The notes under the pieces are model-generated. The model was not told the DNA's origin. It saw nothing but the letters and a program-made list of their open reading frames with translations, and searched no databases. Both the position numbers and the translations under genes were made by a program. From Bisporella sp. PMI_857 (Eukaryota; Ascomycota; Leotiomycetes; Helotiales; Helotiaceae), in the NCBI GenBank assembly GCA_021307315.1, contig JAJSPD010000011.1:434001-498000 (forward strand): a DNA stretch of 64,000 bases. The letters are read 5' to 3'. Positions within the stretch are counted from its first letter, which is position 1. Every line of letters starts with the position of its first letter. This document shows positions 1,144 through 6,093 of this stretch, piece by piece.

Positions 1144-2027
1144 TCACCGTTTCCCGAACATCGCCGTAAAGGAAGCCGCATCAATTTGGCCTTGAAATGC
1201 TCTGCTGTTCTTCGACGTCGTCATCTTCCCAAAAGACTGCTCCACGCCATCGTGTGCCTCGCCAACGATTCCCTGCATTGCAAAAGACTGATCATCGGTG
1301 CTCATGTCACCGAAACTTTGCCCAGTTCTCTTCGCTCTGGTGGCCGAGAGAGTTTCCTGGCAGACTTTCCGAAGCCCTGCGGTCAACTGCATGCTCGCAT
1401 CTCGATCAGAGGCTGAGCCTTCTTCTAACGCAAGGGATGTTTGATGGTTGCGCAGCTGCGTGTCAAGCTCGGCTAGGGCCTGCTCCTGGGCTTGGAAACG
1501 ATCACCTAGTCGCTGGATATCGTCGGTGGTCCGCGTAGTAACAATCCTGTTTCGTGTTAAATATAGTTGACTTAACCGGCATAGAACCTACAGGTTGATT
1601 GACACCAGCACCATGGATATAGTTCTCTGACAGTCGCCCAGCTCTCTATTGAACTTATTTATTTTCGATTCGCGAAATTGGATCGTGAGCTTGTCCCGTT
1701 GCTGAACTTTTCTTTTGTCGAATGGTTCGTGAAGCCCGTGATAAGAGCAGTAAACTCATCGCAAAGGCGTTTCGCCGACTCGAGCGTTTCATCCAATTCA
1801 ATCATGCCTAAAACGGAATTGAATACGCCGACAGGTTCAGAGGCTGCTGTCAGCATCTGTTGCAGAGCACCTAAAGTCTTCTGGGTTTCGACAAGAGAAT
1901 TTTTCGATTTAGCGATGGTCTGCGGCGCCTCCGCCAATCCGTCGATAAGGTCGCATGCTGCCTTGCAGCTTTGCCACGCGAGAGTTGCAACAGCGATTAC
2001 ACTGGCAGTCACGCTGAGGGGATCCAT
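1144..2027 (-). pseudogene. Helo-like N-terminal domain protein with two C-terminal HRAM-like amyloid motifs; one-base frameshift
   Basis: The start ATG is at 2027. The N-terminus (MDPLSVTASVIAVATLAWQS, then CDLIDGLAEAPQTI) is the typical start of fungal Helo_like_N proteins (PF17111 type), relatives of HeLo membrane-targeting cell-death domains. The frame breaks near 1706-1710, where one base appears lost. The family-like continuation (KLTIQFRESKINKFNRELGD) sits in the next frame. An intron at 1547-1591 (GTAGGT...ACAG, 45 bp) joins in frame to TTRTTDDIQRLGDRF and to a tail ending at 1144. The tail holds two 18-residue repeats, GQSFGDMSTDDQSFAMQG and EQSFGKMTTSKNSRAFQG. These resemble HET-s-related amyloid motifs (HRAM), as found in effectors switched on by a partner NLR. 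The neighbouring divergent NLR carries a third copy. As read, the protein would stop after the Helo-like part and lose the motifs. A sequencing error at one base cannot be excluded. Confidence 0.75.
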
Positions 2028-2285
2028 CCTGGTGGCACGCAGAGTGGAAGGATATTAGGGTACGGTGTTGGATGGTGGCAGATACCTTCAGAACTGAAGC
2101 GGGCTGTCGCTCCTGCATTTGATACGCTTATCACAATTCGACCATGTGGTGGCGCTGGGTACAGCCGCAGCCTCGCCATGACGACGAAGGAATTGGAAAT
2201 CTCTTCAAAGCATTTTATACACACGGACGTACAATAACATTTAATTACGAAACGACGCTCGCTCCTGCTTAGGTAAATAAGCACG
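2028..2285. promoter_or_regulatory. Shared 258-bp divergent promoter region
   Basis: This short gap separates the start codons of the Helo-like protein (-) and the NACHT-WD40 NLR (+). No other gene fits. Head-to-head placement implies common regulation, as reported for NLR/effector pairs such as nwd2/het-S in Podospora. I did not recognise specific promoter elements. Confidence 0.45.
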
Positions 2286-4374
2286 ATGGAACCTCCGGCG
2301 GGGCGGATAGAACAGCAATTCGGTAATGCGGAAGCAGCCAACGGCGGTTTGTTGCTCCAGGGCAACGTCCGTGGGGACCTTCACATACACCGTAAGTTGT
2401 CACCGAAACGGTCGGCAATCTACCAACCGACACATTTTGTCGATCTTGGCTAACTTTCTTCAGATTCACGCGACAGTCCGCCAGAGTTCTTCGACAGTCT
2501 CCTAGAAGCCGAGTTTGACGCTGCAAGCAGGCAGCATTCGCCTTCTTGCCTCGAGAACACACGACGAAATGTTCTTGAACAAATCGAGAAATGGGCGTAC
2601 GGCGATGGCAAAAAACATATATACTGGCTTAAAGGCATGGCTGGCACCGGGAAATCCACTATTGCCCTGACGGTTGCCCGCAGGTACGCCAAATTGAGAC
2701 GTCTTGGCGCGAGCTTCTTCTTCTCCCGAGGCGGTGGTGACCTCGCATCCGCGGGGAAATTTGTTATCACGATCGCCGCCCAGCTAGCCCGCACCTCGCT
2801 AGAGCTAAAAAAACGCATTGACGATGCCGTCGCGTCTAACCGTCGCATCCTCGACCTAGGATTGTACAGCCAATGGGAGAAGCTGGTGCTTGGGCCGCTG
2901 GCGCAGCTAGGCAAGAACGTGTTTCCGCTCCCAATTGTCATCGTCGTCGATGCGCTGGATGAATGCGACAACAAAGAGGATGATGTCTCTCTGCTGATCC
3001 AATGCCTTGCTGCCGCTACGGCGGTCGATAACATTCGGCTGCGTGTGTTTGTCACGAGTCGACCAGAGCAGCCAATAAATTTCGGGTTCGGCCGAATCTC
3101 ACAAGACGCACACAAAGATTTTATCCTCCACGACATCGAATAGTCTATCGTAGATCAGGACCTTATGCTATTCTACAAGGACAAGCTCACGTACACAGCC
3201 AAACGATTTGGACTTGGCGATCACATACACTCCGACGAAACTATCCAATTCCTAGTAAGAAAATCCGATCGCTTATTTATCCACGCCGCTACCGTGTGCC
3301 GCTTTATTCACGACGGGGGGCAACTTGCCAGTGATCGTCTCTCTCTTCTGGTTGCCGCGGGAAGCGCGCCAACCAAGCCAGAGAAGGAGCTAGACCAGAT
3401 GTACACCACCGTCCTAACACATTCGCTTGCGGTGAAACTCGAGCAGGAGGAGGTAGCTAGGGTGCAAGCCTCGTTCAGGCGTATTGTCGGATGTATTGTG
3501 GTACTCTCCGATGCAATGACACATACTAGTTTGGCTACATTACTCGGGGAACCCAAGAGCGATATCATTTCGACGCTGCACTCTCTCCATTCAGTGCTGG
3601 ATATTCCAGAGGAGACCAGGCCCATTCGTCTCCTCCATCCGTCCTTCCGAGATTTCCTTCTAAACCCGGCAAGATGTCTGAACCAATCATTCTTGGTCGA
3701 CGCCAGAGCCACCCACCATCACCTATTGGACTGCTGTCTCCGGCTCATGAAGAATCATCTCCGACGGAACATGTGCAACCTTAAGCGGCCTGGAATACGG
3801 GCTCACGACCTTGCTAAAGCCGATGTAGGCAAGTTCATTCCTCTCCCTGTTCAGTACGCCTGTCGCTATTGGATTCACCATCTTCAACAAAGTGATGTAG
3901 ATCCTACAGAGCATTCGGGCATTATGGACTTTTTCCAAACTCGGTTTCTTTTCTGGCTCGAGGGTCTTGCCTTAATTAGTCGGTTGTCCGATGGTATTAT
4001 TATGGTTAGGCTTCTAGAAGTGATGTTAGCTGTAGGTGGTCCTTATCTACTAAACGCGACGCCTATATTAATAAATCGAAGAGGAGCGATGCTACCAGAC
4101 GTCGTCCCCTACTTTTTAGGATTACGGAAAAATGGCGACAGAAACTCTCCAATGATGCTTCCCTGCCTTTACATCTTATATTGTACGATGCGAAGAGATT
4201 TCTCTTAAGTCATAGCTCAATCATTGAAGAGGCACCACTACAGGTGTACTGCTCTGCAACCCTGTTCAGCCCGAAAACAAGCATTACAAGAACGCTTTAT
4301 TCCCATCAGGTTCCAAAGTGGATATTGCGTAGGCCTACCATTTCTGAGAACTGGAGTCCATATTTACAAACCTT

Positions 4375-5804
4375 AAGCCATTCAGATTCGGTGAGGGCAG
4401 TAGCATTCTCGCCCGATGGCAAGCTGGTGGCATCAGGATCTGACGACAGGACAGTCCGGCTTTGGGATGCGGCGACAGGTACAGAGCGGTGTGTATTAAA
4501 AGGCCATTCAAGTTGGGTGTGGGCAGTGGCATTCTCGCCCGAAAGCAAGCTGGTAGCATCGGGATCTAGTGACGAGACAGTCCGGCTCTGGGATGTGGCG
4601 ACAGGTACAGAGCAGCGTGTATTGAAAGGCCATTCAAGTTCGGTGTGGGCAGTAGTATTCTCGCCCGATGGCAAGCTGGTAGCATCAGGATCCGATGACA
4701 GGACAGTCCGGCTCTGGGATGCGGCGACAGGTACAGAGCGGCGTGTATTAAAAGGCCATTCAGATTCGGTGTGGGCAGTAGCATTCTCGCCCGATGGCAA
4801 GCTAGTAGCATCAGGGTCTAGTGACGAGACAGTCCGGCTCTGGGATGCGGCGACAGGTACAGAGCAGCGTGTATTGAAAGGCCATTCAGATTCAGTGTGG
4901 GCAGTAGCATTCTCGCCCGATGGCAGGCTGGTGGCATCAGGATCTGATGACAGGACAGTCCGGCTTTGGGATGCGGCGATAAGTACAGAGCGGCGTGTAT
5001 TAAAAGGCCATTCAAATTGGGTGAAGGCAGTGGCATTCTCGCCCGATGGTAAGCTGGTAGCATCAGGATCTTCTTCTTCTTCTTCTTCTTCTTCTTCTTT
5101 ATTTAACGTCTGGTGGGCTACACGAAGTGTAGCTGCCACAACACCTCCCGAAGGGTATAAAGACGTGGAGAGGCTATACTACAGTCTAATTATTTACACA
5201 AGGCCCAGGTATTACCCTTTCTACCCCTTGCTAATAGTTTTCCTACAGATATCAATCCAATTAATAGCCGAAGCGTGCCTTCCTGAAGGCGTATCAACTT
5301 GCAATCCTACCTCCGCCGGTTGGGTAGGCATTCAACATATCTGTTCTAAATATATACAGTGCTTGTTCCTGTTCTGAGGCTAAGTTCACGTACAGTTTTG
5401 TACTACAAAGGAAAAATAAAAGTAATAACACAAGTTATGAAGGTAGTGAGTGAAACACTCAGTTCGCTTAGGTAGCTATTCAAAGCTCCCCAGCTCGCTG
5501 TCCTGCCTGGATGGTTACATAGGGCAGATTTTGTCATAGAAGCCTGTCACTTCCAGGTATGCCTGGAACTTCGATGGCTTTTCTAAAAGAGAGCGCAAGT
5601 AACCGTAGCATCAGGATCTGATGACAGGACAGCCCGGCTCTGGGATGTGGCGACAAGTACAGAGCGGCGTGTATTGAAAGGCCATTCAGATTCAGTGTGG
5701 GTAGTGGCATTCTCGCCCGATGGTAAGCTAGTAGCATCGGGATCTAGTGACGGGACAGTCCGGCTCTGGGATGCGGCGACAGGTACAGAGCAGTGTACGT
5801 TTAG
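4375..5804 (+). repeat. WD40 repeat array, 126-bp units
   Basis: Near-identical units start at 4375, 4501, 4627, 4753, 4879, 5005 and 5679. Each encodes GHS..V.AVAFSPDGKLVASGS, then TVRLWDAATGTE and R or Q. Unit six is interrupted by the insertion at 5072-5604. Two unit types alternate, SDDRT...TER and SSDET...TEQ, in the order A B A B A A B. Differences concentrate after GHS (DS, SW, SS, NW), in the residue following V (R, W, K) and in the DDR/SDE triplet. Confidence 0.9.
5057..5619 (-). mobile_element. Non-LTR (SINE/truncated LINE-like) insertion in the WD40 array
   Basis: The 15-bp sequence gtagcatcaggatct occurs at 5057-5071 and again at 5605-5619, as a target-site duplication. Between them lie 533 bp (5072-5604) unrelated to WD40 sequence. 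On the minus strand the insert ends in ttaaataaagaag followed by an (AAG)n tail directly abutting the duplication. A long variable-length duplication plus a simple 3' tail is the signature of target-primed reverse transcription. No reverse transcriptase frame fits, so it is a SINE or a 5'-truncated LINE. Removing the insert and one duplication copy restores the WD40 frame (548 bp). One caution: the duplicated word also lies inside the WD unit. Confidence 0.75.
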
Positions 5805-6093
5805 GATAGATACGACTGTGCGATATTTTTCCTTTTCCTCTTGTGGCACATATCTTATTACAGATCGTGGGATTCTTCAGCCGCCTCCCGGCGTATCTCA
5901 ACCTTCGCCCCAAATCTATGCTTCGAGAAGTTGGATAAGGGAGGACGAAGAGGATCTCCTATTCCTCCATCCCGATTGTCGAGACTCGCTCATATTTGTT
6001 GCTGGAAGCACTGTGGTTTTCGTGGATGCTTCTAATCGTGGTTCAGTTTTACAGTTCAGTTCGTCTGCAAAGTGTATGGTAGAGGGCATTTAG

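Follow-up and report, generated by a model that had tools for sequence, protein, structure and literature searches.

The locus described here raises the question whether two neighbouring genes of Bisporella sp. PMI_857 belong to a known type of fungal amyloid signalling system and whether that system still works. The window (64,000 nucleotides of contig JAJSPD010000011.1, positions 434,001 to 498,000) contains a divergent gene pair with start codons 258 bp apart: a gene for a HeLo-like effector on the minus strand and a gene for a nucleotide-binding oligomerisation domain-like receptor (NLR) with NACHT and WD40 domains on the plus strand. A sequence-only reading had proposed that one peptide at the NLR N-terminus (r0) and two at the effector C-terminus (r1 and r2) share an amyloid motif, as in HET-S/NWD2 of Podospora. 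This arrangement with HRAM-type motifs was borne out, and all three peptides were located in the two genes as proposed. The locus very probably represents a HELLF-type (HRAM) amyloid signalling pair which has been inactivated in Bisporella sp. PMI_857. The gene anatomy, the motif identity, the homology to HELLF, the conservation of r0, r1 and r2 in other species and the lesions were all established in this analysis.

Lesions in the effector and receptor genes

All three effector relatives used as tblastn queries (P0029, P0032 and P0041) changed from frame -3 to frame -2, resuming at 1710. In the NLR gene, an in-frame stop codon (3141-3143) lies inside a stretch matched by P0054, P0055 and P0056. 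Further downstream, the tblastn match ends between 4031 and 4112, P0054 and P0055 restart in another frame at 4079 and 4181, and the WD40 part restarts in the third frame at 5605; these positions were found among the matches listed (at most 14 per query), with the P0055 and P0056 rows inside the WD40 array filtered. The breaks thus amount to one in the effector gene (frameshift) and three in the NLR gene (stop codon, frameshift and insertion of a long interspersed nuclear element, LINE), and an open working frame was found for neither gene. The description of the pair as decayed therefore holds for both partners. With r1 and r2 lying beyond the end of the effector frame and the receptor frame stopping within the NACHT exon, the pathway has most likely ceased to function.

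It is improbable that the pair is still functional, with the single-base lesions being assembly errors or being excised by odd introns. Such introns are assumed in the NCBI models of the effector (P0001) and of the NLR (P0053), which both read through with the help of extra introns, and the last effector exon has an open frame in which the key residues of the motif are preserved. However, these introns remove conserved stretches: P0001 lacks a region (FSKRDR...NKF) kept by most full-length relatives, part of which is also missing from P0036, and P0053 lacks approximately 52 residues found in P0054, P0055 and P0056. Because the introns are called across the lesions and remove conserved sequence, the public models hide the decay. 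Moreover, an insertion of 533 bp flanked by target duplications, such as that of this LINE, does not arise from erroneous base calling.

The truncated products, i.e. r0 with a part of NACHT and the HeLo-like domain without r1 and r2, might keep a reduced or new role. The 5' parts of both genes are indeed open (the effector to approximately 122 residues, the NLR to approximately 261), but the effector product is devoid of r1 and r2, so that r0 could not template it, and we consider such a role very unlikely.

The amyloid motif and its class

Two overlapping lists of 27 and 34 effector homologues (52 distinct proteins in all, including P0001) were obtained, and alignments were built from 32 (A2) and 21 (A1) of them. 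The PDB searches with these alignments gave one strong match, 6EKA (E 5.3e-34; 1e-33 with the second profile, whose other 6 matches had E 0.1 or worse). Its title in Foldseek is the solid-state nuclear magnetic resonance structure of HELLF prion amyloid fibrils, and 48 of 69 residues (70%), covering r1, r2 and their flanks, are identical in the window effector. The AlphaFold2 model of the intact relative P0029, based on 32 sequences (mean predicted local distance difference test score, pLDDT, 81.6; predicted template modelling score, pTM, 0.74), consists of a helical N-terminal part and of strands 223-225, 231-241, 250-252 and 258-268 within r1 and r2, over which pLDDT was 63-78 per ten-residue block. 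Foldseek placed 6EKA first for this model (prob 1.00, E 0.061, 73% identity, 52 columns). According to two papers (PMC7885112, PMC7889193), HELLF belongs to HRAM5, its amyloid region is propagated as the [Phi] prion and it triggers death through the HeLo-like protein; its backbone fold is reported to be nearly identical to that of HET-s, with no cross-seeding between the two.

The repeats also satisfy the published rules. PMC4518210 describes two C-terminal copies of 21 residues separated by a loop of 6-18 residues, with hydrophobic residues at positions 5, 8, 10 and 16 (at 10 alternatively T), a preference for R/K at 15 and G19. The window repeats have Q3, F5, M8, T10, A16, Q18 and G19 and a 6-residue loop; r2 complies with these rules fully and r1 at all positions but 15. 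The receptor motif r0 has Q3, F5, Q18 and G19, is weak at positions 8 and 16 and contains no R/K at 15. In the same paper Q18 is the mark of the HRAM4 subfamily, for which its Table 1 gives one Podospora and two Pestalotiopsis fici proteins; its Table 2 lists 10 r0/r1/r2 triples. The HRAM4 group shares Q18 and G19 with the window repeats, and the effector family found here includes P. fici PFICI_11740 (P0052), which we infer to be one of the two P. fici proteins of that paper.

The sequence-only reading had suggested that the motif may define a distinct specificity class. The divergence of r0 and the NACHT-WD40 partner in place of an NB-ARC-TPR one would be in keeping with a class apart from the known HRAMs, but the identity of r1-r2 and flanks to the HELLF amyloid region and the presence of Q18, the subfamily mark in PMC4518210, make it highly improbable. 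Judged by its sequence, the window motif is the already known HELLF type with a solved structure, and no new class. The Podospora HeLo-like HRAM protein was assigned to HRAM4 in 2015 and HELLF to HRAM5 in 2021, so that one group apparently carries two published labels. The labels (PMC4518210 versus PMC7885112 and PMC7889193) need reconciling, and we therefore use the term HELLF type.

Other amyloid motifs were considered as well. Neither the PP motif NxGxQxGxN nor the PUASM motif FxGxGxQxxGxGxF (patterns from PMC9815663) occurs in r0, r1 or r2, and the HET-s motif (HRAM1, with N at position 3) was rejected since all three have Q3. The sigma motif is described as a stretch of approximately 40 residues with a three-fold repeat of two submotifs (PMC5485727).

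The likeness of r0 to the effector repeats was assessed with a 21-mer profile. The spacing of Q-x-F-G and Q-G is identical in r0, r1 and r2. The profile was built from 71 distinct r1/r2 repeats of the homologues and included neither the two repeats of the window nor any 20-residue form of r1. The 21-mers were picked by a pattern fixing Q/N3, F5, Q18 and G19, and the conservation of those columns was therefore taken from pattern-free alignments. Applied to the 52 effector homologues, the pattern yielded 51 r1, 50 r2 and 49 distinct pairs (P0022 gave no r1, and P0003 and P0037 gave no r2). The profile scores were 55.0 bits for r2, 53.3 for r1 and 13.9 for r0, which ranked first, second and third among the 54,725 stop-free six-frame 21-mers of the window; the fourth reached 5.3. 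Within P0053, r0 was the best of 961 21-mers. The r0 motifs of two other species, neither included in the profile, scored 16.6 (Aspergillus sclerotialis) and 15.5 (Nemania) and retain Q3, F5, G6, N7, E9, A10, N12, G13, Q18 and G19 (P0054 and P0055), whereas no 21-mer of P0056, which is devoid of r0, scored above -1.1. The match of r0 is thus confirmed to be beyond chance. That r0 has only 6 of 21 positions in common with r1, and likewise with r2, could point to a chance likeness, but this is extremely unlikely given the rank of r0, the failure of all 200,000 shuffles of r0 to reach 13.9 bits and the recurrence of the motif at the corresponding position in two further species.

Across the 32 aligned effectors, both repeats have Q3, F5, S14, Q18 and G19 without exception, and A16 is present in every r1 and almost every r2. 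Charges were counted in the 31 of the 49 distinct pairs in which both repeats are 21 residues long (18 pairs with a 20-residue r1 were omitted). Facing opposite charges were found at position 7 in 20/31 and at position 12 in 23/31 pairs, and facing like charges in 1/31 and 0/31, respectively. Such a pattern agrees with r1 being stacked in register on r2.

The LINE insertion in the WD40 array

The third lesion of the NLR gene is a 5'-truncated LINE (a non-long-terminal-repeat retroelement). Searches of the organism's own 55.6-Mb assembly, in which the window lies on contig 13, detected two more copies at E up to 0.001 (C248:210375-214638 and C10:80202-80581). The C248 copy runs into an open reading frame (ORF) of 1,279 residues, in which domains for endonuclease, reverse transcriptase and RNase H were recognised, and the C10 copy is cut shorter (384/511 bases). 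All three copies end in (TCT)n, which reads (AGA)n in the element's own orientation, and all three stand directly behind TC[AT]GG[AG]TCT, which corresponds to the Ser-Gly-Ser codons of a WD40 repeat. The insertion site in the window is TCAGGATCT. The copies lie at three different loci with NACHT, and the C248 and C10 loci have HET too. The target duplication of the C10 copy is GTCGTGTCTGGGTCT; that of the C248 copy, read by eye, is 14 bp long, and the WD40 array continues past the element.

A genome search with the ORF of the LINE, in which 36 of 183 candidates were scored, yielded 36 matches with E up to 1e-20, counting the ORF itself; the best of the remaining ones was approximately 34% identical. 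Five of the 35 related LINEs were sampled at their 3' side and showed other simple-repeat tails and no convincing WD40 repeat in the fetched stretch, which in one case extended only 7 bases past the tail; a weak pattern match at one of them (L070) was not a WD40 repeat. In the partly accessible literature that was searched, no report of LINE targeting to WD40 repeats was found, and a Tad3-2-related LINE sequence is mentioned downstream of a Podospora HNWD gene. We tentatively propose, giving it somewhat less than an even chance, that this LINE homes to the WD40 repeats in genes for NACHT receptors and wrecked the receptor half of the pair here.

The WD40 repeats at 4379-5071 of the window look nearly identical to each other. 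Near-identical WD40 repeats are a feature of rapidly evolving fungal recognition genes.

Gene structure, relatives and known systems

The features of the locus are collected in Table 1. The HeLo-like domain of the effector corresponds to Pfam PF17111 (listed as PigL_N), with E 6.2e-12 in the window and 8e-17 in P0029. P0001, the NCBI protein of Bisporella sp. PMI_857, is letter-identical to the window across the last effector exon. The effector C-terminus and r0 are each present in a single copy in the genome; PF17111 has 41 matches there and the NACHT exon 42 including itself, with the best other copy 52% identical. The NACHT exon matches NPHP3_N (E 1.3e-28) and NACHT (E 1.2e-6), followed by WD40 repeats, and NB-ARC only at E 0.01, which is under the family cut-off. 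The Pfam scan gave no match at the NLR N-terminus.

Table 1 Features of the divergent gene pair and the inserted element (positions in the window)
Feature	Position	Strand	Basis or remark
Effector gene	start codon 2027-2025 to stop 1144-1146	-	
Effector exon 1, HeLo-like domain, frameshift near 1701-1710	1592..2027	-	PF17111; tblastn
Effector intron, ~45 nt	1547..1591	-	inferred from splice signals and SINLIVTTR continuity in NCBI model P0001
Effector last exon: r1, r2, short aromatic tail	1144..1546	-	homologue alignments
r1, first amyloid repeat TGQSFGDMSTDDQSFAMQGIV	1264..1326	-	
r2, second amyloid repeat VEQSFGKMTTSKNSRAFQGQI	1183..1245	-	6-residue loop after r1
Intergenic stretch, 258 bp	2028..2285		between both start codons
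NLR exon 1, carries r0	2286..2391	+	NLR start codon 2286
r0 IEQQFGNAEAANGGLLLQGNV	2307-2369	+	NLR residues 8-28
NLR intron 1, 72 nt	2392..2463	+	GTAAGT...CTAAC...CAG; same junction in NCBI model P0053
NLR NACHT exon; stop 3141-3143; frameshift ~4031-4181	2464..4208	+	Pfam; tblastn with P0054, P0055, P0056
NLR post-NACHT region and first part of WD40 array	4079..5071	+	WD40 E 7.3e-81; frame 2 in tblastn of P0054, P0055
5'-truncated LINE (non-LTR retroelement) in WD40 array, 533 bp	5072..5604	-	15-bp target duplications 5057-5071, 5605-5619
NLR last WD40 part and C-terminus	5605..6093	+	WD40 E 1.5e-19

The junction of NLR exon 1 (2391/2464) appears credible from its donor GTAAGT, the CTAAC before the acceptor and the reading frame, which is kept; retention of the intron would lead to a stop after 55 residues. 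The same junction is used in P0053, the NCBI model of the NLR in the window, and r0 is also contiguous with NACHT in P0054 and P0055. The proposed joining of the r0 exon to the NACHT exon thus agrees with the gene models of all three proteins. At 121-320 of the window, short inverted and direct repeats surround ATATACACCTGCAAAATGATGGTATTTCAG and perhaps represent a small mobile element.

Relatives of the NLR were sought with its residues 1-75, which gave 4 matches among 30 candidates; r0 was present in three of the four, the window's own included, and starts at residue 8 in both P0054 and P0055. The A. sclerotialis NLR P0054 (partial) and effector P0029 are each reported on a contig of 7,278 bp, and the NLR P0055 and effector P0035 of Nemania FL0031 each on a contig of 383,494 bp. 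These equal figures make a shared contig of NLR and effector very likely in both A. sclerotialis and Nemania. The fourth match, P0056 from Leptodophora, has an N-terminal HET domain (PF06985, E 2.9e-14) where r0 would be expected. Its NACHT exon is 79% identical to that of the window over 225 residues (P0054 and P0055: 73% and 71%), and the C-terminal 94 residues of the NLR are 82% identical to P0056. HET is joined at the end of the window's r0 exon (LHNHHSRDSPP vs LHIHHSRDSPP), and this exact position at the exon border suggests that r0 and HET may replace one another as N-terminal parts. At this border r0 was perhaps exchanged for HET, with a gene-model error being another possibility. No Leptodophora-named protein was present among the 34 effector homologues of one search, some of which carry no species name. 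The expected co-conservation of the three motifs is seen in two species, whose NLRs contain r0 and whose effectors carry r1 and r2, and fails for the Leptodophora NLR.

The closest known system is HELLF/FNT1 of Podospora anserina ([Phi], HRAM5, 6EKA), with which the locus shares the HeLo-like effector, the r1-r2 region (70% identical over 69 residues) and a neighbouring NLR with a single N-terminal r0, FNT1 being compared by its description. In contrast to FNT1, which PMC7885112 describes as NB-ARC with TPR, the window receptor is of the NACHT-WD40 type, and, unlike in Podospora, both genes are broken. The window NLR was rejected as an FNT1 orthologue, since its best matches are NPHP3_N and NACHT and then WD40, not NB-ARC/TPR. 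For Sordariales, PMC12258605 reports amyloid N-termini on NACHT (44%) as well as NB-ARC (56%) receptors, so that the coupling of r0 with NACHT-WD40 is not unprecedented in kind.

HET-S/NWD2 of P. anserina (HRAM1) likewise combines a NACHT-WD40 receptor with an adjacent effector carrying two C-terminal repeats, but the window effector is HeLo-like (PF17111) with Q rather than N at position 3; no Pfam HET-s prion-domain match was listed for it at E up to 1. The HET-NACHT-WD40 receptors (HET-D/HET-E type) form a third case. P0056 shares the NACHT-WD40 body with the window receptor (79% over the NACHT exon), whereas the window receptor has r0 at the place of HET and would act on a separate effector.

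Several points weigh against assigning the locus to an inactivated HELLF-type pair. The motif r0 is far less similar to r1 and r2 than these are to each other (13.9 vs 53-55 bits), and its core positions are A/S/S (8) and L/S/S (16) across the three species, which makes the hydrophobic core look weak. Only four NLR matches were available, including that of the window itself and one (Leptodophora) that lacks r0, and the equal contig figures imply a shared contig and do not show adjacency of NLR and effector. The Foldseek E-value (0.061) is weak and comes from the relative P0029 rather than from the window protein. Finally, sequencing errors could account for the single-base lesions, though not for the LINE insertion.

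The mode of action of a working ancestor, with templating and cell death inferred from the Podospora work, can be outlined by analogy. The WD40 part of the receptor would sense a cue and the receptor would oligomerise through NACHT, so that the clustered N-terminal copies of r0 could stack as a beta-solenoid amyloid. This solenoid would then template r1 and r2 on the effector, whose HeLo-like helical domain would move to the membrane and kill the cell. The locus in Bisporella sp. PMI_857 is a member of a HELLF-type pair by descent, not a working one.

The HELLF amyloid interface is thus found here on a NACHT-WD40 body, in contrast to NB-ARC-TPR in the studied Podospora case, which suggests that the amyloid contact is a portable part carried by different receptors. 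Similarly, HET in place of r0 in P0056 suggests a switch between two modes of signalling, one directed at a separate protein and the other confined to a single protein. The decay captures such a pair in the course of its loss, with both halves broken. If the LINE does home to WD40 repeats, a mobile element would be landing in the repeat arrays of immune-type receptors of fungi and helping their turnover; if confirmed, this would be a new route of turnover of fungal receptor genes.

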